Below, one piece after another: positions 15,131 through 59,900 of a DNA stretch of 64,000 bases. The DNA comes from Elusimicrobiota bacterium (lineage in GTDB: Bacteria > Elusimicrobiota > UBA8919): the NCBI GenBank assembly GCA_028718185.1, contig JAQUMH010000012.1, positions 1 to 64,000 on the forward strand, written 5' to 3'. Within the stretch, counting starts at the first letter, position 1, and the number at the start of each line of letters is the position of its first letter. A program made the position numbers and the translations under genes. The notes beneath the pieces are model-generated. The model had not been told where the DNA came from. It saw only the letters and a list, made by a program, of their open reading frames with translations, and did not search any database.

Positions 15131-15255
15131 GAAAAATAGTTAATAGTTTTATAGTTCATAGTTCATAGCAAAGAGAAATAACATGAAGAAAAATCCATTA
15201 TTAATATTATTGTTTTTAACTATGAACTATGAACTATTTACTCTGAACTATCTTT
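15131..15255. repeat. TATGAAC-type microrepeats around the start of the PorV-CsgG gene
   Basis: AGTTCATAGTTCATAG before the gene is inverted against CTATGAACTATGAACT inside it. The right arm encodes MNYEL within the signal peptide of the next protein. Confidence 0.7.
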
Positions 15256-19096: not shown

Positions 19097-19175
19097 ACTA
19101 TAAGTAGAGAACTGTCTTAATTTTATGCCGGTATCTGGTGTATTTGTGCAAAACATATTAAAAAAATATTTATTA

Positions 19176-22100
19176 ATGAAAAAATATATTTCAATCACGT
19201 TTATCTGGATTGTTTTTCTTGCCTGTATTTCCGCTGTTTATGGACAGGAATTAGATATGGATGAATGGCAGCAGATAAGAAAACAGAAAGAAGAAAAAAC
19301 GTTTAGTGAAGAAACAATAAATACTGCCAAACCTGAATCATTTCAGGCAAGTTCAACTACGATTACTTCCGAGCCGACATTACCTCCAATACTTTCCGAA
19401 GGAATAGAACTTCCTTATGATTCAAAACTTGCGATTTCGGGCAGGAAGTTTATCGGTATGAAATTTTCAGTCTCAAAATATCTCAATAAGAGGGATGACG
19501 GTAGAACAGAACCGACAGCTGCCGGGTTTGAACTGGACCAGCAGCTTCAAGTTAGGGTTAAGGGGACGGTTAAAAAGAAAATTTCCGTGAATGTTGATTA
19601 TGACGATACGGTTGAAAGTAAAAAAGATATTTCTATTATGTATCAGGGTGATCCTGATGAATTTGTACAGCAGGCAGCATTTGGTGATATTACACTTTCG
19701 CTTCCCGGAACAGAATTTGTTTCGTACGATAAGGCAGCATTTGGTGCTATGGCAAAGCTAAAATATAAGAATGCCAACATGTACGGAGTTTTTTCAAGGA
19801 CAAAAGGTACAACTGAAACAAAACGATTTCATGGTTCAACTACATTTGAAAAGAAAGATATTTATGATATATCGTATCAAAGAAGAAAGTATTATAGGTT
19901 GACGCTTGATTCATCTCAGCTCCCGATTAAACCGGGTAGCGAAAGGATTTACATTGATGATAAAAATGCGCAAAATAATACCATCCTTACTTCTACAATT
20001 ACAGCATGGGATGTTAATGCGTCTACCATAATTGTTTTGACGGCGGAATTGGTTTATCCCGGCAGCGACTATACTGTAGATTATGAAAGAGGGATTGTGG
20101 TTTTTAGAAAAACAATTGCCCAGAATTATGTTATTGTAGTGGATTATGAGAAAAAAGATGGAACAAGAGCTGTCAAAGGCAACCCATTAGATTCCTATCA
20201 AATAATAAAAGATGAAAATGAAGCGCTTAAATATGAACTGAAAAATTATTACTCAATAGGACGTACTAAAATTATAAGAGATGACAACAGAAATAACTTT
20301 ATTTTAAAAATATTGGATTTAGCGCGTATAGAAAAACCAGACGTTGCTCAGTATCCGACAAATGTAGAAGTTGACTTTGAAGCAGGGACTTTTAGATTTA
20401 CTGACTCGGCAGGAAATGATAAAGAACCATTCCCGTCAAGTACATATGAAAACACGCCGACCCGCAATTATATTATTTACACCGAATATAGGTACCGCAC
20501 AAAATCTTATCTTGTAAAACCCAACATAGTTCCGCTATCGGAAAAAATTCTAATGGATGGGGTACCTATTAATCGTGATACAGATTATTTTATGGACTAC
20601 GATTCCGGTTTTATTACTTTTTTGAATGAAGAGAGAATTAGTGATTCAACGCTTATAGATATAACATATGAATGGATGCCTTTCGGCGGACAGATGGATC
20701 AAACAGTCATTGGACTTCGTGGTGAGTATGCACCTTTTAATAATTTTTCGTTTGGCTCAACGTTCTTATATAATTTCCCTGCAAAACCATTAACCTCTCC
20801 GGATGTGCATTCAACTCCGGAAAGTATTTCTGTATATGAATTTGATTCCAGAACAACATTCGCTAATTTACCGCTTAAACCTTCTTTTTCAGGTGAATAT
20901 GCTGGAAGTATTAAGAATCCAAATATTTTTGGTAATGCACTTATTGATAATATGGAAGGCATTAAACAAGCGGATACAATGACTACTGATAAGAATTATT
21001 GGAAATATTCTGCAAATATTTCGGCAGAAGTTACAGCGAATAGTTCTCTTTATTGGGAAAACATAGATGTAAGAATGGGTGATATTAACTCTTCAACTTC
21101 TCAGGATGAGATAGAGACGAAAAAACAAGTATTATATGTTGCCTACAAACTCAATTCAAACAGAGAAGCATCAATTGTTTATCCTATTTCGCGGCTTGGA
21201 GTGGACTATACAAAAAAACTTTTTTTAGATTTTTGGATGTATGGTAACAGTATTGGTAGTTCCGGTGATGAAATTACAATCAGTCTCGGTTCGTTAAACG
21301 AGGATGCCGACGGTGATGGTATATTAGAGACTGAAGATAAAAATTCTGACGGTATTTTAAATCCGGGTGAGGATGTGGGAATTCCCTTTCATCATCCTGA
21401 TGGAAGTATTACTATTATTGGAGCGAACAACGGCAAGATTGATACTGAAGATCTTGATGGTGACGGTATATTGAGAAGAAAAGATTTAATTTTGGGCAGT
21501 TTTGATATGTCAAACTTTGTCAATACGGATGGTTCTATCGGATTTAAGGATGAAACTGGTACAGTTTATAAGAATATTTCATGGACAGGATGGAAACATT
21601 TTGTATTACCGCTCGGTGATACAGCAACATGGGAAGCGGTAAAACAAATTCGGTTAACTATAAAATCACCGCTTGGGAATTCAAATGTTACTAATGTTCA
21701 ATTTACCGATATATCAATTGTAGGGAATAAATGGGAAAAACCAACCGTTTATGGAACCGGAATTAACAATATGATGACTGCTACGGCAATTAATAATGTT
21801 GATAATATCGGTTACACTCCATTATATAGTCAATTTCCCTCACTTTATACAGATCTTTATAATCTTGCAAAAAAGGATTTAACGGGGAAAAAGGAACAGG
21901 CACTTTCTTTGAAGTATACACTTGAAAGCGGTTCAACAGCAACTACAAAAACTGTTTTTGCGAGTGCTGCTAATTATTCAAATCATAAAAAACTGACATA
22001 TTTTTTATGGGGTAATAATTCAGGTGGAGCTGTATTTTCTATGCAAATTGGAGCTGATTCGGCATATTATGAACATACTATAGTCCCGGACTGGGTTGGC

Positions 22101-39887: not shown

Positions 39888-39934
39888 AGGGATTGTCTTT
39901 CCAAACATTTTGGAGTTGACAAATCCCTTTTTTT
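39888..39934 (+). terminator. Rho-independent terminator overlapping the next promoter
   Basis: AGGGATTGTC (39888-39897) pairs with GACAAATCCCT (39918-39928) with one bulge, followed by seven T. The right arm contains the -35 of the next promoter. Confidence 0.65.
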
Positions 39935-39943
39935 GTATATAAT
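39916..39943 (+). promoter_or_regulatory. Consensus promoter of the outer-membrane barrel gene
   Basis: TTGACA (39916-39921) and TATAAT (39938-39943) with 16-base spacing. Transcription should start near 39950, which rules out the apparent start codon at 39933 and supports a start at 40002 or 40011. Confidence 0.75.
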
Positions 39944-40010
39944 AAAATCGCTGAAAAGGTGTCCTTTTTCAGTTTTTTGTATTCCCACCAATTTGAGCGA
40001 GATGAGAGAT

Positions 40011-41957
40011 ATGAAAAAAGTAAATAAATACTTAAATAAACTGCTAATCAGGCTGTTAATTTCCGTCAATTTCTTATTTCTTTATTTTGTTACCGCTATT
40101 TATGCTGCTCCTTCCGGTAATATCCAGCTTACTATTGCATCTCCGGATCCTGCTACTGCCGGTGAAAAGATAACATTCCAGGTTATCGTACTTAATACGG
40201 GTGCGGGAAGCGAAAAATGGCTTTCCGGAGAATATTATTTAGAAGCAGAAATTTACGATTCAAATAAAGCATATATAAGAAAAACAGATAAATATATAGG
40301 GAAAACCAATATTGCTTCCGGTGAAACTTTTCTCGCCTATATTCCATTCACCGTTCCTACTTCTTATTCGGGACAATATTTTTACAAAATAACCTTAACA
40401 TTGAAAGAACAAAAAATAATTGTTTCCGAATATTTACCGTTTACAATAGTTGAATTAACAAAACCGCCAATGCAGCCTAGTAAGGTTGCTTTAGGCGGGA
40501 ATATGATTCTTTCAGGAAAATATTCTCAAAAAACCTACGAAGTTTATGAGGCGTCTTCAAATTATACAAATTCACTGAATCTTAACCTGGTAGGTAAAAC
40601 ATTTGGGTCTCCTGTTTCGTTGAATCTTTACGCACTTTATTCAAAGGATAAGCAATTTGAATTAGATAATTTTTTGTTTAATTATTACGGGAATTCGGTT
40701 CAGGTTGCTTTTGGAGACATACAACCTGCGTATAATTCGCTATGTTTGTATGGTGCTGGTGTAAGAGGATTGAATCTTATCGGAACCAGGGAAAGATTTT
40801 CTGTGTCTGTTATAGGTGCTGAGTCAGCTAAGAAGCAGGAAGGTACATCACTAGCAAATGGTATTTATGAAAGATATTTATACGGTGGAAAAATAACTCA
40901 GGGACTGGATATATTGAATGCAGCTATAGGGGGGTCATATATTATCAGTGAAGATGCTAAAAATTCAATTAAAACACCAGAATCTACGCTTCCTGTAAGA
41001 AACAAAGTTGTTGGTGGTGACGGCTATTTTGAATTTTTTGAAAATGTTAGTTTAAAAGGTGAATATGCAGAGTCACAATATTGGGAAGATGTTTCATCCG
41101 GTGCAGTTAAAGACACAGGACTTAAAACGACAGTTTCTGTTGTTAACGTGAAAAATTTTTCATTTACCGGGATTTATTCTAAAATTGAGCCTGATTTTAA
41201 TTCTCTTGGTGCCCCTTCATCAACAAAAGACAAAGAATCATATGAAATTTCAACTAACTTTTCCCAGCCGAATATATGTTCTTTATCGGTTTATCTGAAT
41301 AATTATCATGATAATTTAAACAAAGATCCAAACAAAACTACCTCAACCCAGAACATTGGAAGCGCTTCAATTGCATTCAATATAGACAAATATCCAACGC
41401 TTACGTTAGGATATTCTATTAACATAGCTAAAGGTGACCCGATAACGGCTTTAGATAATGAAACAAAAACACCGTCAGTTTCACTTTCGCATACCATAAA
41501 ATCAACTACTCTTTCGGTGAGTGCCCAGCGTTCCAATTTCACAGATAAAACAGGAGTATCAAGCAATTTAAAATCGGATATGGGGAATGCGGGTTTTTCC
41601 ACGCGACTAAGTAACAATATCTCAGTTTCAGCGGGTGCTACAATTTCAGAAACATTAAATCTGATTTCATCTACAGCTACAACAACCAATTCGTATTCGC
41701 TAAATATGAATTTTTCAAATATTATTAAAGAAAAACTTTCTGCTGCTGTATGGGGTTCGTATAGTACTTCTATTGATAAACCGGTTCAGTCAACTGACAA
41801 TACGAACTTAACAGGAACAGTTGAATTTACCTACAATCTTCGCGAAAATCTTGCTACCACATTAGGTTTTACTCATACCGATTATGTTAATAATTTTATC
41901 AACACAGAATCATATAAAGAGGAATCCGGAAATTTAAGATTTTCTATGAGTTTTTAA
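40011..41957 (+). CDS. Outer-membrane beta-barrel protein with N-terminal Ig-like domain
   Basis: 648 residues from the ATG at 40011 (ATG 40002 is also possible); the promoter excludes the start at 39933. A signal peptide (about 1-34, ending IYAAP) precedes a CARDB/Ig-like domain of about 120 residues (VIVLNTGAGSEKW, EIYDSN, AYIPFTVP). Then come about 500 residues of alternating strands with a final SFSMSF-like aromatic end (LRFSMSF), typical of outer-membrane barrels. The N-terminal domain resembles the start of the protein at 62068. It sits directly before the motor genes and may be an outer-membrane partner; that is inference. Confidence 0.7.
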   Translation: MKKVNKYLNKLLIRLLISVNFLFLYFVTAIYAAPSGNIQLTIASPDPATAGEKITFQVIVLNTGAGSEKWLSGEYYLEAEIYDSNKAYIRKTDKYIGKTNIASGETFLAYIPFTVPTSYSGQYFYKITLTLKEQKIIVSEYLPFTIVELTKPPMQPSKVALGGNMILSGKYSQKTYEVYEASSNYTNSLNLNLVGKTFGSPVSLNLYALYSKDKQFELDNFLFNYYGNSVQVAFGDIQPAYNSLCLYGAGVRGLNLIGTRERFSVSVIGAESAKKQEGTSLANGIYERYLYGGKITQGLDILNAAIGGSYIISEDAKNSIKTPESTLPVRNKVVGGDGYFEFFENVSLKGEYAESQYWEDVSSGAVKDTGLKTTVSVVNVKNFSFTGIYSKIEPDFNSLGAPSSTKDKESYEISTNFSQPNICSLSVYLNNYHDNLNKDPNKTTSTQNIGSASIAFNIDKYPTLTLGYSINIAKGDPITALDNETKTPSVSLSHTIKSTTLSVSAQRSNFTDKTGVSSNLKSDMGNAGFSTRLSNNISVSAGATISETLNLISSTATTTNSYSLNMNFSNIIKEKLSAAVWGSYSTSIDKPVQSTDNTNLTGTVEFTYNLRENLATTLGFTHTDYVNNFINTESYKEESGNLRFSMSF

Positions 41958-42075: not shown

Positions 42076-42135
42076 ATGGTTAAATGGTTAAGTAGTCAAA
42101 TGGTCAAATGGTCAGGTAGTCAAATAGTAAAGTGT
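42076..42135. repeat. Microrepeat (GTCAAATG units) in the N terminus of the FliF-FliG gene
   Basis: AAATGGTTAAGTAGTC and CAAATGGTCAAATGGTC repeats encode MVKWLSSQMVKWSGSQIVK just before the hydrophobic signal segment, so the positively charged n-region is repeat-derived. Confidence 0.7.
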
Positions 42136-43521
42136 TTGTTGTTTCTCGGTTTAATAATTTGTCAATTTACTGCTATTGTTAATGCCCAAAAAGAGGCAAA
42201 GACATCAATTGAAACTAAGATTGCACTTGAAACTAACCTTGAAAGCCGGTTAAAAAAAGTTCTTACGGAAATCACAGGTACCGAAAAGCTTATTGTGATT
42301 GTGAATGTTGAGTTAATGAGCGAAAAGAAAGAAACTGAACCAGCCAAAAAAGAAGATGATATGATATTGCCGGGGGTACCGATTAAGGAAACACTTGCAG
42401 AAAAAAAAGTAGAATCAGTTATGATGTCGGCTCTCGGTGAAGATACAAGGACAATGATAAAAAAACTTTCCGTAACGGTGATTCTTGACAAATCCATTTC
42501 ACCTGCGGTTGTAGAGATAGTAAATAAAGTAGCGACGGGACTTTTAGGTATTGAATCGGAAAGGGGAGACAAGCTGATAATCCAGCAGATGTCTTTCCAG
42601 AAAAATCTGTTTACGTGGTCTTCACTTATTTATCCGCCGAATATTTATTGGATTATTGCTGTTCTTTCAGGGTTGGTATTTACATTGACGATTTTGCTGT
42701 TTTTGTTCGGACCGTTTCAGAAATTTGCAAAAGAACTTGCCTCAGCTGCAGTAAATTCCGTTGCAGCATTTAAAGAAAGGACTTCCGAGCAGTCAGGTGG
42801 TTTTTCCGTAGGTGGCGGTGTTGCACTTCCTGAGTTAGCTCAGTCAACTGAAACAAAACCCGAAAAGACTGCATCCGGTAAAGAACCGTTATTCTCATTT
42901 GTTAACGAATCCAATGTAAAAGAACTTATTTTCTTGCTAAAAAACGAGTCGCCAAAACATATCGCGGCAGTTATAAATTATCTCTCACCGGAACTTTCAA
43001 CAAATGTACTTAACAGCATATCACCGGATAAGAAAAAAGACATATATTCAGCACTTTCAAAAATGGAAGAATTTGATTCATCTGAAATTGGGACAATTGA
43101 ATCCCAGTTAAAATCAAGAATTGACTATCTCATCGGCGGCGAAGAGAAAATTATGAAAATTATTGATGATGCTGATGAAACAATGCAAATGGAAATATTA
43201 ACTGAACTTAGAAAAACAAACATACCGCTTGCTGAAAAAATACAGAAGTCAATGATTCGCCTTGATATCCTTTCAACGCTCGATATCACAGGGTTACAAC
43301 TTGTTATTAAACAGATAGGCGGTTCATTGTTCGGGCAGATATTAAAAGTTTTATCAAAAGAAGCGCAGGAAAAAATAATAACTATGCTTCCTGCCGGAGC
43401 AGCGACAAGGTTAAGACAGGAAATGGCTCTTACTAAACCGCTTGCACCGCAGCGTCTTGCAATAGAGAAAAAACGTCTTTTAAATATTATCCGTAGAATG
43501 AGAGAAAGAGGACTGATATAA
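42076..43521 (+). CDS. FliF-FliG chimera: FliF C-terminal region fused to FliG middle and C domains
   Basis: 481 residues from the ATG at 42076 (GGGAGG just upstream; a TTG at 42040 is not needed). A signal-anchor or signal peptide (about 18-37) precedes a periplasmic part of about 145 residues (LESRLKKVLTEITGTEKLIVIVNVEL, VKKLSVTVIL-like, GDKLIIQQMSF) that matches the FliF C-terminal periplasmic region. A membrane helix (188-212) and a linker (213-270) follow. Then comes FliG: middle-domain NESPKHIAAVINYL (290-301; EHPQ-type), a GG hinge (354-355), and a C domain with LKVLSKEAQEK...ATRLRQEM and an end RRMRERGLI. The FliF ring-building domains and the FliG N domain are missing. MotA and two MotB genes follow, and no other flagellar gene is seen. 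It is the likely rotor of a non-flagellar motor. Confidence 0.82.
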   Translation: MVKWLSSQMVKWSGSQIVKCLLFLGLIICQFTAIVNAQKEAKTSIETKIALETNLESRLKKVLTEITGTEKLIVIVNVELMSEKKETEPAKKEDDMILPGVPIKETLAEKKVESVMMSALGEDTRTMIKKLSVTVILDKSISPAVVEIVNKVATGLLGIESERGDKLIIQQMSFQKNLFTWSSLIYPPNIYWIIAVLSGLVFTLTILLFLFGPFQKFAKELASAAVNSVAAFKERTSEQSGGFSVGGGVALPELAQSTETKPEKTASGKEPLFSFVNESNVKELIFLLKNESPKHIAAVINYLSPELSTNVLNSISPDKKKDIYSALSKMEEFDSSEIGTIESQLKSRIDYLIGGEEKIMKIIDDADETMQMEILTELRKTNIPLAEKIQKSMIRLDILSTLDITGLQLVIKQIGGSLFGQILKVLSKEAQEKIITMLPAGAATRLRQEMALTKPLAPQRLAIEKKRLLNIIRRMRERGLI

Positions 43522-43524
43522 AAA

Positions 43525-43703
43525 TCGCTTGCAAGTAAATTTTTTTGAGACACTCGCTAGAACTCGTTCTACAATTGACACAAAGTGTCATTGCGAGGAG
43601 TGAAACGACGAAGCAATCTCAATGGGATTGCCACGGGACTTTGTCCCTCGCAACGACTTCGTCGATTGAGGCTTTTCAAAAATTTCTTGCTTCGCTCGCG
43701 TGA
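43525..43703. repeat. R3 repeat, copy 3, interrupted by an R1 element
   Basis: R3 ends are present (TGCAAGTAAATTTTTTTGAG and CTTTTCAAAAATTTCTTGC), but the central hairpin is replaced by an R1 copy at 43586-43657. R3 begins just after the FliF-FliG stop and ends 15 bases before motA. Confidence 0.85.
43586..43657. repeat. R1 repeat, copy 6, nested in R3
   Basis: TGTCATTGCGAGG to CTCGCAACGAC, with AAGCAATCTC and GGGATTGCCACG inside. It lies within the loop position of the surrounding R3. Confidence 0.85.
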
Positions 43704-43718
43704 TAAAAGAGGTGAATT

Positions 43719-44492
43719 ATGGATTTAATGACAATTTTGGGAATTATTACAGGATTTGGCGCTATTTTGTTCGTAATGGTACGCGGCGAAATGGTCCATA
43801 TGCTTTGGAATGTTGAAGCATTAGTACTTATTTTCGGTGGAACTTTTGGAGCGGCGATGATTACATATCCATGGAAAATAATTAAACGGATTCCGGCTGC
43901 TCTGTTTATTGTCTTTTTCCCTCGCAAGAGGATGCCGTTAATCGTTGCGAGTAAAACATTTACCTGGCTTGCTGAAAAAGCGAAACGGGAAGGTGTTGAA
44001 AAACTGCAGGAAGATATTTCTAAACTTGACTCGCCATTTTTAAAAGATGCATTACAGATGGTTGTAGACGGTCTTGAAGCGGATGTAGTAAAAGAAAAAC
44101 TTGAGAAAGAGATCAGTTCTATTAGAAGACGGCATCAGCAATTAGCGAATGTATTCCGTTCAATGGGTACTTATGCTCCTATTTTTGGACTTTTGGGTAC
44201 ACTGGTAGGTGTTGTTCAGGTGCTCCGTAACTTGACTGACCCGCAAAGTTTAGGTGCTTCCATGGCAATAGCCATGACAGCGTCTTTTTATGGAATTTTC
44301 TCCGCGAACTTTATGTTTCTTCCTATTGCCGGTAAATTATCTGCAAACAGCGAAGATGAAATTATACTTAAAGAAGTTATAACTAAAGGTGTATTGTCTA
44401 TTCAAAAAGGCGATGTCCCGGTTGTTGTTGAGAAAAAATTAGAAGCCTTTATATCATACCGTACAAGAGAAAAAGAAAGTAGGAAAAAATGA
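43719..44492 (+). CDS. motA: MotA-like stator subunit
   Basis: 257 residues with four membrane helices, a cytoplasmic loop between helices 2 and 3 (about 60-145) and a cytoplasmic tail. YAPIFGLLGTLVGVVQVL (with the channel proline) and FLPIAGKLS (second conserved proline) are MotA/PomA signatures. In the loop, KREGVEKLQEDI corresponds to the segment holding Arg90 and Glu98 of E. coli MotA; a basic residue is kept and the acidic one appears shifted by one. MotA surrounds MotB to form the ion channel that pushes a FliG-type rotor. It follows the FliF-FliG chimera with a GAGGTG ribosome site. Confidence 0.92.
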   Translation: MDLMTILGIITGFGAILFVMVRGEMVHMLWNVEALVLIFGGTFGAAMITYPWKIIKRIPAALFIVFFPRKRMPLIVASKTFTWLAEKAKREGVEKLQEDISKLDSPFLKDALQMVVDGLEADVVKEKLEKEISSIRRRHQQLANVFRSMGTYAPIFGLLGTLVGVVQVLRNLTDPQSLGASMAIAMTASFYGIFSANFMFLPIAGKLSANSEDEIILKEVITKGVLSIQKGDVPVVVEKKLEAFISYRTREKESRKK

Positions 44493-44560
44493 GAACCTAG
44501 GATTTGAGTTTTAGGATTTAGGAATAACAAATGTTTTGGTTTTTCCTAATCTCTAATCTC
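44493..44560. repeat. Inverted repeat between motA and motB
   Basis: GAACCTAGGATTTGAGTTTT and AATCTCTAATCTCTGG-type units form an imperfect inverted repeat built of short tandem pieces, filling the gap. Confidence 0.5.
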
Positions 44561-44571
44561 TGGACTTATTT

Positions 44572-45237
44572 ATGGCAGAATCTTATCGTGAAAGACGAAC
44601 TCAGGAAAATCCCATCTGGTTAGCTGTTTTGTCAGATTTAATGACTAATCTTATGTTGTTTTTTCTTGTACTTTATGGTTTTACAAGACAACCTGAAGAA
44701 ATGAGGAAATCTATGACTGCTGCTCTTTCAGATAGGTTCAAAGGCAAGAAAGTGGATTATGCACTTGCTAAAGCGGAAAAAGTCGTTAAAAAATTTCAGG
44801 AAGAGGAAACGGCGTCAAGAATAGATAATCTTGTAAAGGATAAAGGAATTCAGGAATATACACAGGTAGAAATTAGTGAAAAATACGTAAAAATAACACT
44901 GAAAACTCCTGTTTTATTTTCTCCGGGTAGTTCAGCATTAAAAGAAGAAGCAATGATTTCATTAAAAGAAGTTTCAAAAGCTCTTCGACTATTACCAAAT
45001 TCTGTAATAGTTGAAGGACATACGGATAACGTACCTATCAGTACAAAAATGTATTCGTCTAATTGGGAACTTTCAGTTGCAAGAGCGTATAGCGTAATTG
45101 ATTTTTTAATTAAAGCAGGAATACCACCTGATAGATTTGTTGCAGCAGGTTACGGTGAATATAAAGCAATCGCTTCAAACGATACAGAAGAAGGCAGAAT
45201 GCAAAACCGCCGCATAGAAATAAACGTCGTAAGATAA
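44572..45237 (+). CDS. motB: MotB-like stator subunit, first copy
   Basis: 221 residues. A short cytoplasmic N terminus leads into one membrane helix with the ion-binding aspartate (Asp22) in SDLMTNLMLFFLVLYGF. A periplasmic linker follows, and then an OmpA-like peptidoglycan-binding domain (VEGHTDNVPI, NWELSVARAYSVIDFLI, GYGEYKAIASNDTEEGRMQNRRIEI). With MotA it forms the stator anchored to the cell wall. A second, distinct MotB follows. Its stop is separated from that gene by an R2 repeat. Confidence 0.93.
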   Translation: MAESYRERRTQENPIWLAVLSDLMTNLMLFFLVLYGFTRQPEEMRKSMTAALSDRFKGKKVDYALAKAEKVVKKFQEEETASRIDNLVKDKGIQEYTQVEISEKYVKITLKTPVLFSPGSSALKEEAMISLKEVSKALRLLPNSVIVEGHTDNVPISTKMYSSNWELSVARAYSVIDFLIKAGIPPDRFVAAGYGEYKAIASNDTEEGRMQNRRIEINVVR

Positions 45238-45342
45238 GGCACGCGAATGGACGCGAATAATCAAAAAATCGCGAATACCACACGAATAATTCGTGACCAA
45301 TTCGTGAGATTTTATAAAATTCGTGAACATTCGTGTTCCCGA
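45238..45342. repeat. R2 intercistronic repeat, copy 5
   Basis: GGCACGCGAATGG after the motB stop to ATTCGTGTTCCCG before the second MotB. CACGAATAATTCGTG forms the tip. It fills the gap between the two motB genes. Confidence 0.8.
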
Positions 45343-45359
45343 GTGAAACGAGGGTAGGT

Positions 45360-46121
45360 ATGGCAGAAGATTTTAATGATTTAGAACTTGAAGAAGATTT
45401 TTTAACTGAAGAAGAAAGATATATTGAAGAATTTAAGAAGGAAGATGCTAAGGAAGCAGAAGATGATTCTTTCCAGGAACATCATGATGATATGTCCCAG
45501 CATTTATGGATGGTTTCTTTTGCTGACCTTATGACAATACTTATGATTTTTTTCCTTTCGTTATTCGGGTATGCATATTCGGGTACTTCAACCCAATATG
45601 AAAAAGCGATGGCGTCACTGCAGAAAGATGTTGCGTCAACGAAAGGAAAATCTGTTTTTGAAAATAAAGAAAAAGAAGCGGATGCTGCTATGCAAATGGA
45701 AACTTTTATTAAAGAAAAAAAACTTGCTGAATATGCAAAAGTAGAAACTAATGCACAGCGAATAAAAATTTCGCTTTCTAACCCGATTTTGTTTGATTCC
45801 GGTTCTGCAGAACTTAAGAGTGAAGCAGTGCCTGCTCTAAAAGAAATAGCGCACCTTATCCGTTCAATGGATAATCCTGTTGTAGTTGAAGGGCATACTG
45901 ACAATGTTCCGATGTCATCAGCTAAATACCGTTCCAATTTTGAGCTTTCTGCTGCAAGAGCGTTTAGCGTAATAGGTTATTTTATTAATGTTGAAAAAAT
46001 GTCACCTGAAAAATTCTCAGCTTTCGGTTACGGAGAATACAAAGCGGTTGCCCCTAATGACACGGATGCAAATAAAGCAAAAAACAGAAGAATAGAAATA
46101 AACATCATCAGGAAAACATGA
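45360..46121 (+). CDS. MotB-like stator subunit, second copy with acidic N-terminal extension
   Basis: 253 residues from the ATG at 45360 (AGGG/AGG just upstream; a GTG at 45333 is less likely). About 48 mostly acidic cytoplasmic residues precede the membrane helix with its ion-binding aspartate (Asp56) in FADLMTILMIFFLSLFGY. The OmpA-like domain (VEGHTDNVPM, NFELSAARAFSVIGYFI, GYGEYKAVAPNDTDANKAKNRRIEI) is closely similar to the first copy. The stop overlaps the start of the TPR gene (ATGA). The two MotBs may form mixed or alternative stators. Confidence 0.92.
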   Translation: MAEDFNDLELEEDFLTEEERYIEEFKKEDAKEAEDDSFQEHHDDMSQHLWMVSFADLMTILMIFFLSLFGYAYSGTSTQYEKAMASLQKDVASTKGKSVFENKEKEADAAMQMETFIKEKKLAEYAKVETNAQRIKISLSNPILFDSGSAELKSEAVPALKEIAHLIRSMDNPVVVEGHTDNVPMSSAKYRSNFELSAARAFSVIGYFINVEKMSPEKFSAFGYGEYKAVAPNDTDANKAKNRRIEINIIRKT

Positions 46122-47017
46122 AAAAGATAAAAAATGTCCAATGTCCAATGTCCAATGTCAAACGGAAATGGTTTGTATTTATATTTTTTATATTATTATT
46201 GACCCCGGACATCGGACATCGGACATCGGACTGCCTTTATTCCCAAGAACTCAACACACTTTACCAGGATGCTATGAATGCTTTTTATAATAAGGATTAT
46301 AAAAAAGCGATTGGTATATGGGAAGAGATAATAAGAATTGATGTTAACCAGAAAAATCCTCCAAAACTAATAGAAATGGCACGGGCAAAGATGTTTGATA
46401 AAGTCAAACCTCTCCTCAATGAATTTACTTCCTATTTAGAAAAAGGCGATTATACAACAGCAATCAGAAAAAACAATGAGTTACTTGAAATTGACCCCTT
46501 AAACGGAAACTACAAAAAAGCATCAGAGAAACTTGAAAAAGTTGTAACAATGTTAGCCCCTTCCATTACACAAGTAAGTAAAGTCGGTGACCTTATGAGA
46601 AAAAGCATAGCTGCGCATGTAGCTGGTGCAAAAGACGAAAGGATACCCGTTTTAGCAAGTCGTTATGCGTGGCAGTTAGATTCCAACAATAAATTTGCTG
46701 AAAAGGTTTTTCTTTTCATGGAAAAGGAATATATAACAATAGCGCGTATGGAAGTAATGGAAAGGGGTAAAAATGTCATTGAACAAAAACTTGCTGTTAT
46801 TCTTGAAGATATTTATGACGGTAAATATGAACATGCATTAATAGAATGCGAAATTGTCCTTGCTATTGAATCTGAAAACGTTATGGGATGGAAGCGGCTT
46901 GGTTCCATATATTATGCTCTCGGAAAAAGAGCTGAAGCCAAATCCGCATGGGAAAAAGCTCTAAAACTAGACCCTAAAGACAAAGACATAGCCAGATTTT
47001 ATAAAAGAGTGAAGTAG
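46118..47017 (+). CDS. Exported TPR protein of the motor cluster
   Basis: 299 residues. A hydrophobic signal segment (about 14-28, WFVFIFFILLL) lies between two heptamer-repeat-encoded stretches (VQCPMSNV before and DIGHRTSD after). TPR-like helices follow at both ends (LYQDAMNAFYNKDYKKAIGIWEEII; ALIECEIVLAIES, GWKRLGSIYYALGKRAEAKSAWEKALKLDPKDKDI). It probably sits in the periplasm and binds partner proteins; a link between the MotB periplasmic domains and the outer membrane is inference. It is coupled to the second motB by a 4-base overlap. Confidence 0.75.
   Translation: MKKIKNVQCPMSNVKRKWFVFIFFILLLTPDIGHRTSDCLYSQELNTLYQDAMNAFYNKDYKKAIGIWEEIIRIDVNQKNPPKLIEMARAKMFDKVKPLLNEFTSYLEKGDYTTAIRKNNELLEIDPLNGNYKKASEKLEKVVTMLAPSITQVSKVGDLMRKSIAAHVAGAKDERIPVLASRYAWQLDSNNKFAEKVFLFMEKEYITIARMEVMERGKNVIEQKLAVILEDIYDGKYEHALIECEIVLAIESENVMGWKRLGSIYYALGKRAEAKSAWEKALKLDPKDKDIARFYKRVK
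46136..46232. repeat. R4 heptamer inverted repeat around a signal-peptide coding segment, copy 3
   Basis: CCAATGT/CAATGTC units at 46136-46160 are inverted against GACATCG units at 46207-46232. The hydrophobic core of the signal peptide lies in the loop. Confidence 0.85.
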
Positions 47018-47983: not shown

Positions 47984-50900
47984 ATGAAAAACAAAAAAAT
48001 CATTAAAATAGGAACTTTACCCCGTATATTTATTGTGCGGGGCATTTCCATTTTATTGCTATACCTTATTACCATTTTTTATTCTAATTTTGCCTGTGCA
48101 GATAATATTATTCACACTACAACAACAGATTTTTCAAGCGGTACATTTACAGGTTGGGGAATTACCGCGAGTACATCATCTGATCTTCGGTTGGATTTCG
48201 AAGCTTCTGGAATTGAATCTACAGGTACAACAACATCTCTGACATTAAATCGGGTTTTTCACGCTGTGGCGACATGGAATGGAAGAATTTATGTTTCCGG
48301 TGGAGGTGACGGTGCTGCTGAATCAACAGTTTATTCTGCACAAATCAATCCTAACGGTACTATTAGTAGTTGGAATACAGAAATTAATTCTCTACCTCAA
48401 GCACGTTACTATCACGCTATGGTTGCCTGGAATGGACGACTTTATGTAACCGGTGGTAAGAACGGCGGTACTACTGTGAATACGGTCTATTCTGCATCCA
48501 TTAGTACTAATGGTTCTATTGGAAGTTGGACGATAGAAGCCAATGTATTGCCTGCAGTTCGTCATAGTCATGCTATGTCAGCATGGAACGGCCGGCTTTA
48601 TGTTACCGGTGGAGACGATGGTAGTGGCGGCGATGCTCCTCAAACTACTGTCTATTCTGCACCAATCAATGCTAACGGTTCAGTAGGAAATTGGAAAGTA
48701 GAACCTAATGCTCTTCAATCAGCAAGATATGGACATACAATGGGTATCTGGAATAATAAGATTTATGTTGTAGGTGGATGGGGTGCAACTTATTCAGATT
48801 TAGTTTTTTCGGCTTCCATAAATTTTGATGGAACCGTTGGGGTGTGGTCTCAAGAAACAAAACAACTTCCCATTGCATTCAAGTATCACGCTATGTCTGT
48901 TTATAATGGGGTACTTTATGTCAGCGGAGGTTATAGCGGTTCCGGTGTATTAGATACGATTTTTATTGCATCTATAACAGCAAACGGAAATGTGGGAACA
49001 TGGTCATCAGTAACTGCTCTACCGGGAAAACGATGCTATCATTCAATGGGTGCATGGAATGGAACTCTTTATGTCATAGGAGGACAAGATGAAACCTTTG
49101 CAAACAAATCTACGGTTTTTATGATTGCTGTGAAATCCCAAAGCATCTTCAAGGAATCTTGGGTCACAGAATCCAATAATCTTTCCCAAGGTCTCAGCGG
49201 GCTTGCAATGGCAACTTACAACGGGCGGCTTTATGTTGTCGGAGGATTTAATAGCGGTATTTCTACACCGAGCGTATATTCGTCTTTAATTGACGGGAAT
49301 GGAAATGTAGGAAGTTGGACCAACGAAGCAAATCAAATGCCTCAAGGGCGATATAATCATGCAGCGGCGGTATGGAACGGAAAACTTTATGTGGCGGGTG
49401 GTTTAAGTTCCAATACTGTTTATTCTGCACCTATAAATGGAGATGGTAGCATCGGAGTTTGGGGTGCGCAAGGAAATACACTTCCGCAAAACCTTGATTA
49501 TCATACTATGGTTGCCTGGGGTTCTTCGCTTTATGTGGTTGGAGGTATAAATGGTGGTACACCTCAAAACACCGTTTATCGTTCTTCTGTTTCCGGAAAT
49601 GGTACTGTAGGAGTGTGGAATGTAGAAACTGCTCTTCCTAAAGCACTTTACGGTCATGCGATGTCTATCTATAACGGAAAACTTTATGTGGCTGGAGGAG
49701 AGGATTTTAGTTTTACTATTTCGTCATGTGTTTACACTGCTCCTATAAATGGTGATGCCACGGTAGGAAGTTGGACACAAGAGCCATTCTCACTTCCAAG
49801 TGGTGGAGCCAAATATCTATCAATGTGCATTGATAATAATAAAATTGTCGTGACCGGAGGAAATAATAGCGGAGCTAAGAACACAGTGTATTCATCAACT
49901 ATCACTGCAAATGGCGGTGTTGGTGTATGGACTGTTGAGCCTAAAACTTTGCCATTACAGTTAGATAGTCATGCTATGACTACTTATAATGGAAGGTTTT
50001 ATTTGGCAGGTGGTGCAAACAGTGGTGGAGTTCCACAACCGCAAGTTTATTCTAACTCAATGAATGAGTGGCGGTTATATACAACTTCCGGCACTTATTT
50101 TTCACCGGTTATAGATTTTGGCAATACAGATATTATCAACTCAATCTCATGGACTCAATCCAATAACCCTGCAGGAAGTGTAGTTGCGGTTTGGATTGCT
50201 ACCGCTACTTCAGGCACACAAGTTATTTCCACATTTACCCAGGTTTCAAATGGTAATGCATTAAACATAAGTGCTCGTTATCTTCAATATAGAATTGACA
50301 TGTCACCCGGAGGAATTATTGGAACTCCACCTCGCGAACAAACACCTATTATAGATGATGTAACTATTTCTTACACCAGTGTATTATTACCGGCACCTAC
50401 TTTATACTATCCCTCAACAGCGACATGGACAAATGCGGGTATTTGTGATTGGAGTGATGTGACAGGTGCAGCTGAATATAATTTACAGATAGATGATGAT
50501 ATAAATTTTGGTTCTATAAATCAAAACAGCAACGCAACGCAATCATCAGCGACAATAACTTCTTTATCGGAAAATTTATTGTATTACTGGCGAGTAAAAA
50601 CAAAAAACAGTGATGGTAATTATGGTGCATGGAGTTCAACCCGCTCATTCAAATTAGATTTGACTGATGCTGTATTTAGTAATCTGTTGGTCCAGACATC
50701 CACAGGAGGCTGGGCGGCAAGCACATCATATGTAAATATATCAACACCGCAAATACAAATTAATGTTCAGGATGTAAATTATTCAGGTTTAAGGGTTGGA
50801 ATGACGGAAACAGTAGCGAGCAGTGGCTGTGTCCTGTTGATGCATTTGAATGGAGATACTACAGATTATTCAGGTTATGGTAATGATGGGGCAAGGGTGG

Positions 50901-53900
50901 GTACTAGTTGGTCAAGTATTCCAACATGGAAGACAACAGGTGGGAATGAGAATATGTTGTATTTTAATGGCACCGCTGATTATGTGAATTGTGTTAATGG
51001 AGAAGGTTTAACAAATTTAATTAATAAAATAACGGTATCGGCATGGATAAACTGGACAAAGCCATCTGATGCAGACCAGCAAATAGCAGTTGGTAGGTCC
51101 GGTGATTGGCGGTTTGGCGATATGGGAGCAAGTAATAATACTTGGGGTTTTTATGCACCTGCACCATATAATGGAACCGGGGGATGGGCACCTTCAGGCG
51201 TTACAGTACCACAGAATGAATGGCATCATATGGTATTTACATATAATGGTTCAACAGCAAAAATATATAAAGATGGAATATTGGCGAAACAGGCAAGTGT
51301 GACAGGTAATTTAGGTATAAATAATAATGTATTTATTGGTGCTCGCAATAATGCTAATTCTTATTTTGGCGGATATATAGATGAGGTGGGGATATGGGAG
51401 CGGACATTAAGTGCGGAAGAGATAGCAGTGATGTATAATTCTTGTGCAGTAAAGTACTCAACAAATGCATGGACAAATTCAGAGATAATTACATCAACAA
51501 ATATAGTGCGGACAACAGGCATTGATGGAACTACATCATTACAGTTTTCAACAGCAACAGCGATTCAATTCAAACAGGGTACAGATAACAGAATACAGTT
51601 TTTAGCCCGGGATGAAGCGGGTAATCTTGCCGAGTCAGCCAGTTACACAATAAATATAGATACTATTACATTACCACCTGCAGCTATATCGGACTTAACA
51701 GCTTTACCAGGCAATAATGAAGGCGAGATTGTTTTAAAATGGACAGCACCCGGTGCTGATGGAACTGTCGGTAATTTAACCGGGCAATTCGAGATAAAAT
51801 ATTCTACAGTTGGTATAATTACAGCAGGTAATTATGATACTCCGCCTGTTACTACATATATTGTTGATATCACAACCAGTAATGTGGCGCCACTAACTAT
51901 TTGTACAACTACATTTTATAATTTAAGTCCTAACACAACCTACTGGTTTGCTATAAAAGCAAAAGATGAGGCAGGTAATTGGTCACTGTGGAGTTCACAA
52001 CAAGATTTCGCTACTATAAATACAAAAGCTTATATTTATATACCATCTATTATCATGGCAGTCAATAGTGGTGTGTGGAATGACCAGAATACGTGGGAAG
52101 GCAGTAATGTTCCATCACCGTATCAACGAGTACAAATTAATGGTGGTCGTATTGTCACATTTAATAGAAATGATTCAAATGTTACCTGTTCAACAATTAC
52201 CATTATAGGAAAATTACAGTTTGATGCGGGGGTTGATTCAAGGACAATGATTGTAGCAGGAGGTATTGATATACAAAGTGGTGGGCAATTCCTTATGCCG
52301 CCGAATACAGGGTATATATCAGTACTAAAGATAAAATGTAATTCTGCCGGTGAATATGGAATAACTGTGAACAATGGTGGTGTATTTGATGTTCAGGGAA
52401 ACACTACAACAACGCCATCTAATAGGAACTGTTTAATCACATCATATAATTCATCTTATAAAACATATATAAGAAACCTCTCACAGGCAGAAGCAAACTT
52501 TAATATGTATTATGTTGAAGTAAGCAGCTTGGGAATGAGTGATATAGGAAAATATGGAATAACCTTTGATGGTTCAGGAACAAAAGGAAAAGTAAATTAT
52601 TGCAGTATCCATAATGGATATTATGGCATTTATCTTTACTATAGTTCCAACAACACTTTAGACAATAACAGTTGTTACTCAAATTCTCAAGGTATTTTTG
52701 TTCAAGCCAGTTCCAATAACACTTTAAGTAATAACAGTTGTTACTCAAATACTAGTGATGGTATTTACCTTTCTGATGGTTCCAATAACAATACAATTGT
52801 TAATAACAACTGTTATTTAAATAGTAGGCATGGCATTTCCCTTTACAACAGTTCCACTAATAATATAGTAAACAGTAACAGCTGTTACTCAAATACTCAA
52901 AATGGTATTTACTTTGAAAACAGTTCCAACAATAACATATTAAGCAATAACAGTTGTTACTCAACTATCCGGGGCATTCGTGTAAAGAGTTCCATAAATA
53001 ATACAGTGGTGAACTGTGAGTTGGGTAAAAGTGGAAATAATGTAAGTGGTGATATAGATTATTCAGGTAGTTCTCTTTTAACACTGACTTTAAAAGATTG
53101 TAGTTTAAATTCTACAACAAAAGTAAATACAACAGGAATGACTGCTGCGGGATCTTACCTTGTTTCATATAATCAGGATAATTCAACAGGCACAGTAAAA
53201 ATCTGGGGTGATTATCAGGTAGATAGCGGCAAGACCTTAAAGAGTAATTATGATGATGTGTTATATGTTTCAACTGCAACAGAACCCAATGCAACATTAA
53301 AAGGTACAGGTTCAATATATGGGATAAAGACTAATGATTATCAAACAGCGACTGAATTGTGGGAAGTGAAATGTACCGGTGACCCGAATTTTACGGTGAA
53401 AAGGGGTACAAGCAGTGTGTTATATACGGATGATCCGGGTAATGTATTAGATAATGGTGTGGAATATACATCAAATATCCGTGGAGTAAAATTCACCATA
53501 CAATCGGATGTTTATTCAGTAGGTGACATGTTTTATTTTGTAACGGTTTCCTCATCTGCTGACTCATTCGTTCAAAAGAAGATTGAATTTAATGATTCAC
53601 CGGTTGGAACAAAGTTAACCGTTAGCACCGGTGGCGAGATTCAAATGAGAGGTAGTCTTTTGTATCCTACTATATCAACCTCTGCAGCAAGCAATGTTTA
53701 TTATGGATTTTATTCATCGGGAACAACAAATTTGAATAGTTATGTGTTTTCAAACCTTACGTCAAATGGTGTAGTGATTTCTTCAGGGGCTAATGTTATT
53801 GATTTAAGTACCGGAACTTTTAATAGTATACAAGATAGTGCCGGTGATTCAAGTTACATCAGGGTAAACGGACTTACGTCCTCAGCTACGTTCTATGGCA

Positions 53901-56900
53901 ATATTTTTAATGATGCTCTTGGAACAGCGGATTATAACGTTAAAGCAAATGGTTCGGGAATCAACTGGACATTTATGAACGCATCCGGGGCAAAATCGGG
54001 TGAAAGCTACGATAACGAGGTTAATGGTGCAATAATAACTTGGAAAGAAAACGTTCCACCAACAATTCAAAATTTACAGTCAGGAGATAATGTTGTAAGA
54101 AATGTGGCAGGAGCAACCTATAAGGTTTATTTCTATGATGACGGGGGCAGTGGTTTGGATACAATTCAATACAAAGCTTGTTCTCAACCCGGTCAGGTGG
54201 GAATTATAAAGGATTGGACAAATATCACGGCTCCTTTAGGCGGTTCTGCGACATATTATCAAACCGACTGGAACCTTGATGCTGATTTTAATACCTTGCT
54301 TTCGTTTCCTACTACTAACTGGATTTCTGTTCGGGCATGGGATGTATCAGGGAATACAACAACTATACCCGACGTTTTTTATGTGATAAAAGATACTATT
54401 CCGCCGGCATCAGGAGTGTCATATCCCAGTGAGACAAATTATGAAACACTTTCAACAATTTCGGGAACTGCTGGAGACAATTACAATCTTAACAAAGTTG
54501 TATTGCAGATAAAACGATGGTCTGATAATCAATATTGGACAGGTAGTGGATGGAATGGTGATTCAACAACATGGCTTAATACGACTGGATCACCAATTGT
54601 ATGGCAGTATAACGGACTTACAGATGCCAATTTGACACCGGGTTGTTCTTACTGGGTGGTTTCAAGGGCGTCGGATACAGTTGGTAATTTAGAGACATCC
54701 GGTGCAGGTATCACGTTTACGTATAAATGGAAAAAGACAATTGGCAGTGGAAACTGGGATGTTGCTGGTATGTGGTTTGGTGGGCAGACACCTCTTGCCG
54801 GTGATGCTGTAGAAATTAGGTCAAATCACGCAATAACTTTAACACCGGGCACTTCCTCGTTGTATTCTCTTACTGTAGAAGATGGAGGAAGGTTGACGGT
54901 TTCGGGACCTCAGTTAACTGTCTCATCCGGTACCGGTGGTGGAATTTACAACTACGGAACGCTCGCAATGATAGGTGGAACGCTTGGTATAGGAGGCGAT
55001 AGCGGTAATAAAGTTCTTTTTTCAACTTCACCGTTGCAAATATTTTCTATTTTTACATACGCAGGTTCCACTGTTACACTTCAATCAGATATAAATATTG
55101 GCTATATGGGTGTTACTGGAGGTAGTACACTTGATGCAAATAATAGACAGATAAATGTTTCATATAATTGGCAGCAGGACGGAACATTTATTGCAGGTGT
55201 TTCTACAGTGACATTCAATTCTCCCGGATTTGGGCAATTTATAAATGGTTCTGTTCCCGTATGCAATTTTGCTAATTTTGCTGTTAATTCGTCCTCAACA
55301 GTTATACCTACGAAACCGCTTGATATAAACGGGAATTTTACAATTCAAATTGGAACTTTTAATGCGGGTGCCTATGAACATACAATTGCAGGAAACTTTA
55401 ATCAGATGGATGGAATATTTAATGCGGGAATATCAACAATGACTTTTGATGGTATCGGGACACAGATAATCTCTTCATTAATATCACCGGTAACATTTTA
55501 TTGTCTCATGCACACAGGTATCGGTTCTCTTACTCTTGGTGCAAACCTTGATATAAATGGAAACTTCACTCATTCTGCCGGAACAGTTAATTGTGGAAGT
55601 TATCAATATAATCTTGCCGGCAGAATGTCATTAAATGCTTGGAATGCCGGTAATTCAACATGGGTTTTTGATGGAACATCAGCACAAACAATTCCATCCG
55701 GTTTTGGTTTTTATAACATTATTGTTGACAATTCTATAGGGTTAAGTTATACAGGGACAGGGAGTAGACAAATACAGAATAATTTAGATATAAAACCGGG
55801 CGCTAAATTGGATATAACAAATAATGATATTGAAGTATGGAGTAATCTTACCAGTTCAGGTACATTCATTACTGCGGGTTCAACAGTAACATTTGGTAGT
55901 AATAATGACAGTATACTTTATGTAAATACAGGTACTACATTCGGTAATATTAGATTGAATAAGTTATCAAACAAAACAGTATCAATATTTTCTAATGCTT
56001 CAACAATTGGCGGGTGGCTGGAAATTAGTACCGGAACTTTAAATATGCTTAGTTCAAGTTCTACTGTTCAAGGTGCAACTACAATTAGTGGTTCTAATGC
56101 GAAATTGGATATCGGTTCATCTACTACGACGCTTGTGGGTGCGGTAAATGTACTAAACGGGGGAACGCTTCTATTGCCAAGCTCTAATCCTGCATCGGTT
56201 CTAAAACTCGGAGGAAATCTTCTGACAGTTGATACCGGCGGATTCTTCATTTCCCAGTCATCAAATAATATGATAACTTCAACTAATCCTGGCAGCGTAT
56301 TTTATACGTTAAGATGTTTTGTTTCAACAGTAAATGTTACAGGAATAACATTACAGTCGGCGGGTGATAATATTGATGTTCTTTTTATATCCAGTAATAC
56401 AAAAATTGTTAATTTGAACTATATCGTCTATAAAGATCCGATGTCAGCAATAAACCGTGCGTTATCACTTGACTATACAATAATTCCCGGAACATTTACA
56501 TTTATAGGACATCAGTTTGGGTCGACAGTCTTCACAAATATCTATGCTCCAAATCTTGTAAGTGGAGTTGTTGTTATGCAGAATGCGACGGGAGCAAAAG
56601 CTGGTTCTGATTACGAAGCAGAACCGAACGACAGAGTTTTTTGGCCTGGAAATGATTCAATAGCAGGGGTGGGACCGGGTGCTGGTGAATCATTCTTAAT
56701 TGGAACTTCAACAAAAATTGTTTGGACCACATATGGCTCAATAAAGAATTTTACGATTAAATATTCAACAAACAATTTTACAACTGATAATTTTGTAGCA
56801 AATGTGTCTTCTCCTTCAATAAATTTTGACTGGACAATACCAAATAATATTTCAACTAATGTAAAGGTTCAAGTTTATGCTACCAATTATCCGATTATAA

Positions 56901-59900
56901 ATAGTATTTCACCTTCAACTTTCAGAATAGTTCCGTCTGTAAACGCAGCATCAAATTTGAAAATCTCTTCATTAGGCACAACCTCCATTCAATGGCAGTT
57001 TACTGATAATGCAAATGATGAAACTGAACTTTATGTGTCCAGCGGGACTAATGATGTTACTAAGCGGCTTTCTGAGAATTTGGGACCAATAACCGGTACA
57101 GGCGGTACAACAAGTTGGTTGGAAATTGAACTTTCAACAAATACAGTATATACAAGATATGTTGAGTCAAGAAGCATTGTTGGAAGTTCCTGGTCACTTG
57201 TTTCAATTACAAGTTACACCGCGTCAGCTGCACCTTTAAATCTTACATTTACTAATGTTGGTTCATCAAGTGCAACATTAACATGGTCAACAAACACCAA
57301 TCCTAACTGGACAAGATACGGAGTTATATTATCCAGCAGTACTGATTTCTATGGCACATCAGTAAGTACAACTGTTGCTTATGCTGAGAATCTTACTGCT
57401 AATACAACAACACTCCTTTCATTAAGTCCTGAAACAGAATATTATTTTAGAGTAATAGCATTTAATGGTGACAAAATCCAAACAACATATATCCAATCTA
57501 GTACAACAACAAAACCATCTGCTGAACCTGCTGCACCGATAAATTTAAAAGTATCGGCACTGTTAGGTCCTACATCAATTTACTGGCAATTTGACGACAA
57601 TTCAACAAATGAGACGGGTTTATATCTTTCCAGTGGAACAAATGTAACAATGCGTTTATCAACTAATTTAGCAAACACGGTAACTAAAGGTACAACTTAC
57701 TGGTTAGAATTAGGACTTTCTACTAACACTAAATATACCAGATATGTGGAAGCCGAAAACGCTTACGGCAGTTCTTGGTCATCATCAATTAGTTCCTACA
57801 CACTTACTTCTGTTCCAAGCAAACTGACAATTATCGGCCGTTCATCATATACTATAGTACTTGACTGGCAACCTAACGGTAATCCTGAGCCCGGAACTAA
57901 TTATTGGATATCACGTTCAACATTTAATAGTTTCCAGGAAGAAATTAATGGTATTTATTCGACTTCTACAGCCATACTTTCTGATCTTTTACCATATGTG
58001 ACTTATTACTTTAAAGTAAGGTCGGAAAATGGGGATTCTGTTATGAACTATGGATATGAGACACCTATATCAACAAGAACCATGGCAGGCTCTGTAAATT
58101 CAATTGGAATCTCTGGATATGTCGGAAATGCACTCTCTACTGCATCTATACAGTGGTCATGGACAGATACAAATTCCGGACAAAATAGCGAAGATGGTTA
58201 CTACATAAGACGTGCGGCTGATAATGCTATATTGGTTTCTTTGCCAACGGATACTATAACTTGGACGCAGAAAGGTCTATCCGCAAACATTTCTACAGGA
58301 ACATATATTGAGGTATATAACGAATCCGGTAGTGCATTTTCATCATCACAATTTAAATATACGTTAGCAAACACGCCATTGAATATTTCAGTTAACAATA
58401 TTGGTCAATCCAGTGTTACAATTCAATGGGGTATAAACAACAATCCAACAAATAATACTATTTATGCGGTGGCTCAATCAACCTGCCCTGAATTTGTAGG
58501 TGTTACAGTCAGTACGTTTGTCAAATATGCAGATAATCTCATAAATAATACTACTATTGCATTTAACCTTACTCCGGAGACTACATATTACTTCAGAGTA
58601 TGGGCATATAATGGGAGTGCTATTGAGACAGCATATTCCCAAACATCTTCTGCAATTGTTACACTAATTGGACCGCCTGTACCGCCAAGTAATCTTAAAA
58701 CAGTATCACTAGGTCCGACATCCATACAATGGCAGTTTGATGATAATTCTACTAATGAGACAGGATTATATCTTTCCAGTGGAACAAACGACATAACAAT
58801 GAGATTATCTCCTAATTTAGCAAATACAGCATTTACTGGTACAACCTACTGGTTAGAATTAGGACTTTCTACAAATACTGCATACACAAGATATACCGAG
58901 TCAGTAAATTCAGCAGGTTCCAGTTGGTCGTCCGTCTCAATTACAAGTTACACTGCGGCTGTGTCACCATTAAACCTTACATTTACTAATGTTTATTCGT
59001 CAAGTGCAACATTAACATGGTTTGCAAACACCAATCCTAACGGAACAAAATATGGTGTTATTTTATCCAGTAATCCTGAGTGTTATGGTGCGACAGTTAG
59101 CACAGCAGTAACTTTTGCGAATAATCTTATTAATAACACTATAACAGTATCTTTATTAAGTCCTGAAACCGAGTATTATTTTAGAGTAATAGCATTTAAT
59201 GGCGACCAAATCCAGACATCATATGTCCAATCCAGTACTACCACAAAACCATCTGCTGCTCCTACTGCGCCTTCAAACTTGAAAGTATCAGCATTATTAG
59301 GTACTACATCCATCTACTGGCAGTTTGATGATAATTCCACTAATGAGATAGGATTATATATTTCTAGCAGCAAAGATATAGCGGCAAGACTATCACCTAA
59401 TTTAGCGAACACAACATTTACTGGAACAACCTACTGGTTAGAAGTAGGACTTTCTACAAATACAGCATACACAAGGTTTGCAGAAGCAGTAAATGCAAGT
59501 GGTTCCAGTTGGTCGTCCGTTTCAATTACCAGTTATACCGCGACTGCATCTCCTGGAAGTCCGTATGTAACTATGATTTCAAGTTATGCTATATATTTAA
59601 ACTGGCTGCATAATAATAATAATGTAGATACTGTTTACAATATTGAAAAATCTACAGATAATGTGAATTTTGTGTTAGGTAACACAATTTCTTCTACGTT
59701 TGATCCGGTTACATCAGAATTGTATGGTTTAAAACCGGGTACAATCTATTATGTTCGCGTAAACGCTAAAAATGGTGATAATATATATTCAGATTACTCG
59801 TCGGTCATTTCAACGGAAACTTTACCTGCGGCTGCGCCTACTGATACAACACCACCGGTGGTTACTATAACACAACCTGCAAACGGTTCTTATAAGGCTT

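Follow-up and report, generated by a model that had tools for sequence, protein, structure and literature searches.

Can a flagellar rotor and stator operate in a cell that builds no flagellum? The question is raised by a 64,000-nucleotide stretch of an Elusimicrobiota genome (assembly GCA_028718185.1, lineage UBA8919; contig JAQUMH010000012.1, positions 1 to 64,000; hereafter the window), in which one 481-residue protein joins parts of FliF and FliG and is encoded ahead of one MotA and two MotB genes. An initial annotation made from the window alone read this module as a slimmed rotor driven by a MotAB stator in a non-flagellar role, which agrees with our survey of 295 Elusimicrobiota genomes (190 of them high-quality, 90 genera), and we consider the existence of such a non-flagellar FliG/MotAB rotor highly probable. 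Judged by its sequence, the window locus is one of three paralogous, flagellum-independent motor copies in the source genome.

The rotor subunit and its stator

The chimera starts at an ATG (42076) just downstream of a GGGAGG ribosome site. Its signal or anchor helix leads into a FliF RBM3-like domain, which a transmembrane helix connects to the middle (FliG-M) and C-terminal (FliG-C) domains of FliG. The open reading frames, gene order and coordinates first given for the chimera-MotA-MotB-MotB module were borne out. The C-terminal half has a FliG fold, as evidenced by Pfam scores well over cut-off for both FliG_C (61.5 bits) and FliG_M (46.4 bits), by a profile of the window chimera and ten relatives (11 sequences) that matches Thermotoga maritima FliG at E 4e-54, and by a Foldseek comparison of the AlphaFold2 model with the PDB in which FliG structures rank on top. 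The equivalog model for complete FliG (TIGR00207), by contrast, gives the chimera 73.9 bits (cut-off 226.7) and aligns at model positions 109–324 only.

In the FliF part, YscJ_FliF_C reaches 23.8 bits, exactly its Pfam cut-off, and the same 11-chimera profile matches FliF weakly but at the correct position. The AlphaFold2 model, computed from the 11 sequences (mean predicted local distance difference test score, pLDDT, 67), comprises an alpha-beta-(loop)-beta-alpha-beta unit, the transmembrane helix and the FliG helices, and its next Foldseek matches after FliG are to the RBM3/S-ring of Salmonella and Vibrio FliF (6sd1, 8ftf and 8zdt; E 3e-3 to 2e-2, probability 1.00). Since this order is the one given for RBM3, an alpha-beta-beta-alpha-beta domain whose first two strands are separated by a beta-collar insertion (PMC11481574), the chimera appears to retain the S-ring-forming domain of FliF. 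The collar insertion is short and predicted to be disordered in the window copy, and the corresponding loop measures ~35–112 amino acids (aa) across the family. RBM1/RBM2, the cytoplasmic tail of FliF and the N-terminal domain of FliG (FliG-N) are absent. The initial view that FliG-N and the ring-building domains of FliF are missing was thus correct for FliG-N and for RBM1/2, and has to be revised for RBM3.

At residue level, EHPQ, the FliM-binding motif of FliG, is reduced to ExPx in the chimeras, which fits the absence of FliM described below. The GG hinge is conserved in 61 of 62 chimeras, the site of K264 is mostly basic in one of the two chimera clades (clade B, to which the window copy belongs), and D288/D289 have become Q/E or E/E in most copies.

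The window MotA scores 92.8 bits to MotA_ExbB in Pfam and 218 bits to the MotA model versus 20.6 to TolQ, and it matches a solved flagellar MotA over its full length (E 1.6e-54), which places it in the flagellar class and not with the TolQ/ExbB-class A subunits. Neither of the prolines that correspond to P173 and P222 varies among 44 relatives, 36 of which have R or K at the position of R90. Both window MotBs contain MotB_plug and OmpA domains. Clade-B MotB1 carries the ion-binding Asp in every locus with a readable motif, while this residue has become Asn in MotB2 of eight relatives (L058, L060, L061, L064, L066, L067, L085 and L089). Because MotB2 may lose the Asp while MotB1 keeps it, the two probably pair as a heterodimer in clade B, forming an asymmetric stator.

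Occurrence of the chimera and of flagellar genes

The source genome has three FliG_C matches, all of them chimeras and each on a different contig (C3, C9 and C12), and searches of it for FlhA (the type III export gate), the C-ring proteins FliM/FliN and the FliF RBM1/2 domain (PF01514) were empty. Of the features that define a flagellar motor, the chimera system lacks four, namely a full FliG, FliF RBM1/2, FliM/N and FlhA. With neither a flagellar gene set nor a separate FliG in the genome, the initial annotation is upheld, and we reject on the same grounds that the locus is a side copy of a normal flagellum.

Across the phylum, FlhA was found in three of the 295 genomes, and FliM/FliN exceeded the cut-off in the same three; PF01514 did so in one of 214, a flagellated one. 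The three (G031, G215 and G246; loci L144, L145, which is G215, and L146) are rare Elusimicrobiota with real flagellar gene sets. In the literature, PMC7031533 notes only that Elusimicrobia lack flagellar genes. The chimera profile matches 121 genomes (94 of the 190 high-quality ones, 60 of 90 genera), often with 2–5 copies and never with more than five. As the match in G031 is a true FliG and G215 combines chimeras with flagellar genes, ~119 genomes hold a chimera without a flagellum. Two families with small genomes lack the chimera, f3 entirely and f4 in nearly all members. FlbD/SwrD, which is reported to increase the power of the flagellar motor in Bacillus (PMC9195833), is over cut-off in 105 genomes, of which 102 are chimera-positive (Fisher p 5e-55, for genomes that are related and not independent). 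The other three (G038, G067 and G122) have FlbD/SwrD and no chimera detected at E 1e-5, their rotor being possibly missed or divergent. A survey of MotAB (PMC12505986) names neither Elusimicrobia nor a FliG chimera, and the initial impression that no system of this form has been described holds for the open-licence papers searched, in which we found none; subscription papers and bioRxiv lay outside the search.

That the locus is a contaminant or mis-binned flagellar fragment has negligible probability. The assembly (3.03 Mb, 96.7% complete) does consist of 27 contigs with contamination of 1.8%, but the three copies lie on three contigs and the family spans the phylum, on which grounds the explanation was rejected. 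The nearest relatives in public records are Elusimicrobia metagenome-assembled genomes, the closest chimera copy being 66% identical, and a single scan of genome contigs, with patterns from the three paralogs, gave matches in Elusimicrobiota only.

We also consider it very unlikely that the module is what remains, in degenerate form, of a flagellum in an ancestor, retaining no motor function or only a signalling one. The true flagellar genes in three genomes mean that the ancestor may have been flagellated, and some of the FliG torque charges are lost; against this, open reading frames and gene order are conserved phylum-wide, the copies have been duplicated and specialised, FlbD is kept, and both the MotA prolines and the MotB1 Asp are maintained as described above.

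Two clades and their gene neighbourhoods

We fetched 63 chimera loci and clustered their neighbours, calling genes with homology weighting (L113 and L114 yielded no called chimera); as the loci share ancestry, the counts below are not independent trials. A tree of 60 chimeras resolves two groups, A and B (supports 98/94 and 92/94), both found throughout the phylum. In it the source genome's copies occupy three different positions, and copies group by type, not by genome; by this topology the chimera was duplicated long ago and its copies have become specialised.

Clade B has the order outer-membrane barrel, chimera, MotA, MotB, MotB and tetratricopeptide repeat (TPR) protein. The 25 loci include the window, and MotA is next to the chimera in all of them, with two MotBs in 23, together with an exported TPR protein of family c5 downstream in 13 and a c8 barrel immediately upstream in seven. 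The c8 barrel of the window more likely starts at an ATG at 40011. It has no match in Pfam or NCBIfam, and its AlphaFold2 model contains many strands of 10–15 residues at low confidence (pLDDT 34).

Clade A is ordered PorV-TPR barrel, chimera, giant cytoplasmic coiled coil, SwrD, MotA and MotB, and its chimera usually has a longer tail. A PorV-family barrel with TPR (over cut-off for PorV_fam in NCBIfam) lies one or two genes upstream of the chimera in 27 of 29 loci, and as the 53 PorV-family matches of the source genome make up only ~2% of its genes, this association is not an effect of gene density. All 29 loci encode coiled-coil proteins of 500–1200 aa with a proline-rich start, some of them also a coiled coil of 1500–2100 aa; for c4/c13 Pfam gives weak coiled-coil and TPR matches and nothing further. 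FlbD occurs in 14 loci, MotA in 13, and giant surface proteins of ~2000 aa, whose type IX-like sorting tails consist of FlgD_ig/CHU_C-like domains, are found upstream in 13. One locus has a CHU_C protein followed by a PorP/SprF-like barrel.

Flagellar-type MotAs in the source genome number three (C9, C12 and C1), beside a single ExbB/TolQ-type gene pair (C1:655749). The C1 MotA belongs to an unlinked FlbD-MotA-MotB set (L010 9014–10694; G000:C1:110600–112300) that holds the only FlbD/SwrD of the genome. Since the MotB motif of this set, WLINYADLMTEL, matches clade-A stators and FlbD adjoins it, the C1 MotA-MotB is probably the stator of the C3 chimera.

Surface machinery and candidate functions of the motor

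The window also holds parts of a type IX secretion system, a SprA-like translocon and sorting-domain proteins, which the initial annotation had overlooked. A SprA-like translocon of ~1700–1900 aa was detected with our own profile in 67 of 68 phylum genomes tested (including L132–L143 and L147). Sorting-domain cargo and PorV/PorP barrels are present as well; scores for CHU_C and Por_Secre_tail are mostly below cut-off, and those for FlgD_ig are above it in several proteins. GldM (GldM_1st) was absent from 20 of 20 genomes tested, GldL itself not having been searched, and a GldLM-type motor was rejected on the GldM result. SprB, the gliding adhesin of Flavobacterium, is retained on the cell surface by SprF, which is PorP-like (PMC9143113).

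Because of the clade-A locus that pairs CHU_C with a PorP/SprF-like barrel, and the PorV-like barrel ahead of most clade-A rotors, surface movement is our best guess for the role of the motor. More specifically, chimera subunits would form an inner-membrane ring through RBM3, and MotA5-MotB2 units anchored to peptidoglycan by MotB would pass ions and, by spinning, drive the ring of FliG-C domains in the flagellar manner. The FliM-binding site is lost, and so is RBM1/2, the part that holds the export gate; the ring would therefore contain no export gate and undergo no switching by FliM. Torque would then cross the periplasm to an outer-membrane barrel, PorV/PorP-like with TPR in clade A and c8 in clade B, and the barrels may move surface proteins that the type IX-like system has exported, producing a motion akin to gliding. 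In clade A, the giant cytoplasmic coiled coils may serve as a track or scaffold. It is fairly likely that what the motor drives lies at the outer membrane or the cell surface. The entire chain, from FliG rotor and MotAB stators through barrel coupling to the movement of surface proteins, is a serious if slightly doubtful possibility, and gliding or surface motility as the driven process is proposed tentatively. With similar reserve, we suggest a separate class of rotary machine, in which non-flagellar FliG rings, an ancient family of duplicated and specialised copies found phylum-wide, act together with type IX-exported surface proteins to yield gliding or a surface conveyor, the stator of one clade being an asymmetric MotB1-MotB2 unit.

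The same surface genes could be read as an export machine, in which the chimera motor powers secretion through the SprA-like translocon in place of the GldLM/PorLM of type IX systems. The missing GldM and the occurrence of translocon and sorting-tail proteins in the same genomes, and in the window, are in keeping with this; the translocon is kept, however, in 25 of 26 chimera-free genomes tested, so secretion needs no chimera, and the presence of up to five motors in genomes that mostly have a single translocon points to a different function or to more than one. We therefore consider an export motor unlikely. A Tol-Pal-like role in envelope maintenance, cell shape, division or load sensing, in place of surface movement, is improbable too. 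The OmpA domains of MotB and the LysM domains of some neighbouring barrels bind peptidoglycan, and exported TPR proteins adjoin the motor genes, but the source genome has the separate ExbB/TolQ-type pair noted above, no Tol-Pal-like system is known to use a rotor ring of the FliG type, and the families f3 and f4 still divide, the former without the chimera and the latter almost entirely so.

Several observations weigh against the proposed chain. The translocon is also present in chimera-free genomes, which leaves gene order as the basis of the surface or secretion link, and the barrel adjoining the window chimera is of the c8 family and not a PorV. The FliF part of the chimera is weak by sequence, with moderate confidence in its AlphaFold2 model. 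Some of the classic FliG torque charges are altered, R281 being replaced by G and R297 lost, so that the mesh with MotA must differ from the flagellar one. Finally, we found neither an experiment nor a report of motility in chimera-bearing Elusimicrobiota.

In Myxococcus, the AglRQS-Glt gliding machinery combines one A with two B subunits, AglR being TolQ/ExbB-like, and AglZ is a long cytoplasmic coiled coil. The system described here shares the one-to-two subunit composition, a coiled-coil partner (in clade A) and the lack of a flagellum, whereas AglRQS-Glt has no FliG/FliF rotor. ExbBD, TolQR and Zorya ZorAB are also 5:2 ion-driven rotary units, none of them with a FliG ring. Shared with the flagellar motor are the FliG-M and FliG-C folds, RBM3, a full-length flagellar-type MotA, a MotB with plug, Asp and OmpA domain, and SwrD/FlbD, here in clade-A operons; unlike it, the present system has no FliG-N, FliM/FliN, RBM1/2 or type III export gate, and has a single fused rotor polypeptide and two different MotBs. 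Engineered or mutant FliF-FliG fusions, those of Salmonella and the Vibrio FliFG (PDB 8z4d), likewise place FliF and FliG in one chain, but the Vibrio construct contains full FliF and full FliG, while the natural chimera is without RBM1/2, the FliF tail and FliG-N. With type IX secretion and gliding of Bacteroidota (GldLM, SprA, PorV, SprB-SprF) it has in common a SprA-like translocon, PorV/PorP-like barrels, giant sorting-tail surface proteins and an ion-driven inner-membrane motor, which here would be a FliG rotor with MotAB stators in place of the GldM-containing one.

To our knowledge, FliG has been regarded as a flagellum-only protein. If the non-flagellar rotor is real, it would show that the flagellar rotor-stator pair can be put to another use without export, switch or propeller. 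The torque step would presumably be the already known flagellar one; should the link to the surface prove correct, the machine as a whole would count as a new class. It would offer a minimal natural rotor for structural work and bear on the evolution of the flagellar and type IX/gliding motors, and its natural variants (altered FliG charges, Asp/Asn MotB pairs) make the question of the stator mesh testable.

Table 1. Positions of the motor genes, their domains and neighbouring features in the window
Feature	Position	Strand	Evidence
FliF-FliG chimera, rotor subunit, 481 aa	42076..43521	+	Pfam, profile vs PDB, AlphaFold2, Foldseek
RBM3-like (S-ring) periplasmic domain, residues ~40–174, motifs IKKLSVTV and RGDKL	42193..42597	+	YscJ_FliF_C, Foldseek, AlphaFold2
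Transmembrane helix, residues ~190–211, then family motif FLFGP	42643..42708	+	AlphaFold2 helices, conservation
FliG middle domain, residues 283–350, FliM-binding EHPQ degenerate	42922..43125	+	Pfam, residue tally
FliG C-terminal torque domain, residues 377–481	43204..43518	+	Pfam, PDB
MotA, flagellar-type stator A subunit	43719..44492	+	Pfam, PDB match, MotA model
MotB1, ion-binding Asp in SDLMT motif, OmpA-type peptidoglycan domain	44572..45237	+	Pfam, motif
MotB2, ADLMT motif in window copy	45333..46121	+	Pfam, motif
Exported TPR protein, family c5	46118..47017	+	Pfam, synteny
c8 predicted outer-membrane beta-barrel, N-terminal Ig-like part	39933..41957	+	Synteny, C-terminus ...LRFSMSF
SprA/Sov-like type IX translocon, outside motor operon	19125..24305	+	PF14349; TIGR04189 E 6e-35, below equivalog cut-off
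PorV/UPF0164-like outer-membrane protein, context	15183..16658	+	Profile match
4642-aa surface protein, FlgD_ig/CHU_C-like C-terminal sorting domain, candidate cargo	47984..61912	+	Open reading frame, profile match

Among the neighbouring features, the 4642-aa protein encoded just downstream of the motor operon has kelch-like N-terminal repeats and many Ig/fn3-like domains. The 53 PorV/PorQ-family matches are an unusually large barrel set for a 3-Mb genome. Short dispersed repeats (encoding VQCPMSNV, RTSD and MVKW-like peptides) occur in the signal-peptide-coding starts of several exported-protein genes, at 42078–42110 and 46135–46214 of the window and at 12904–12990 of L005.

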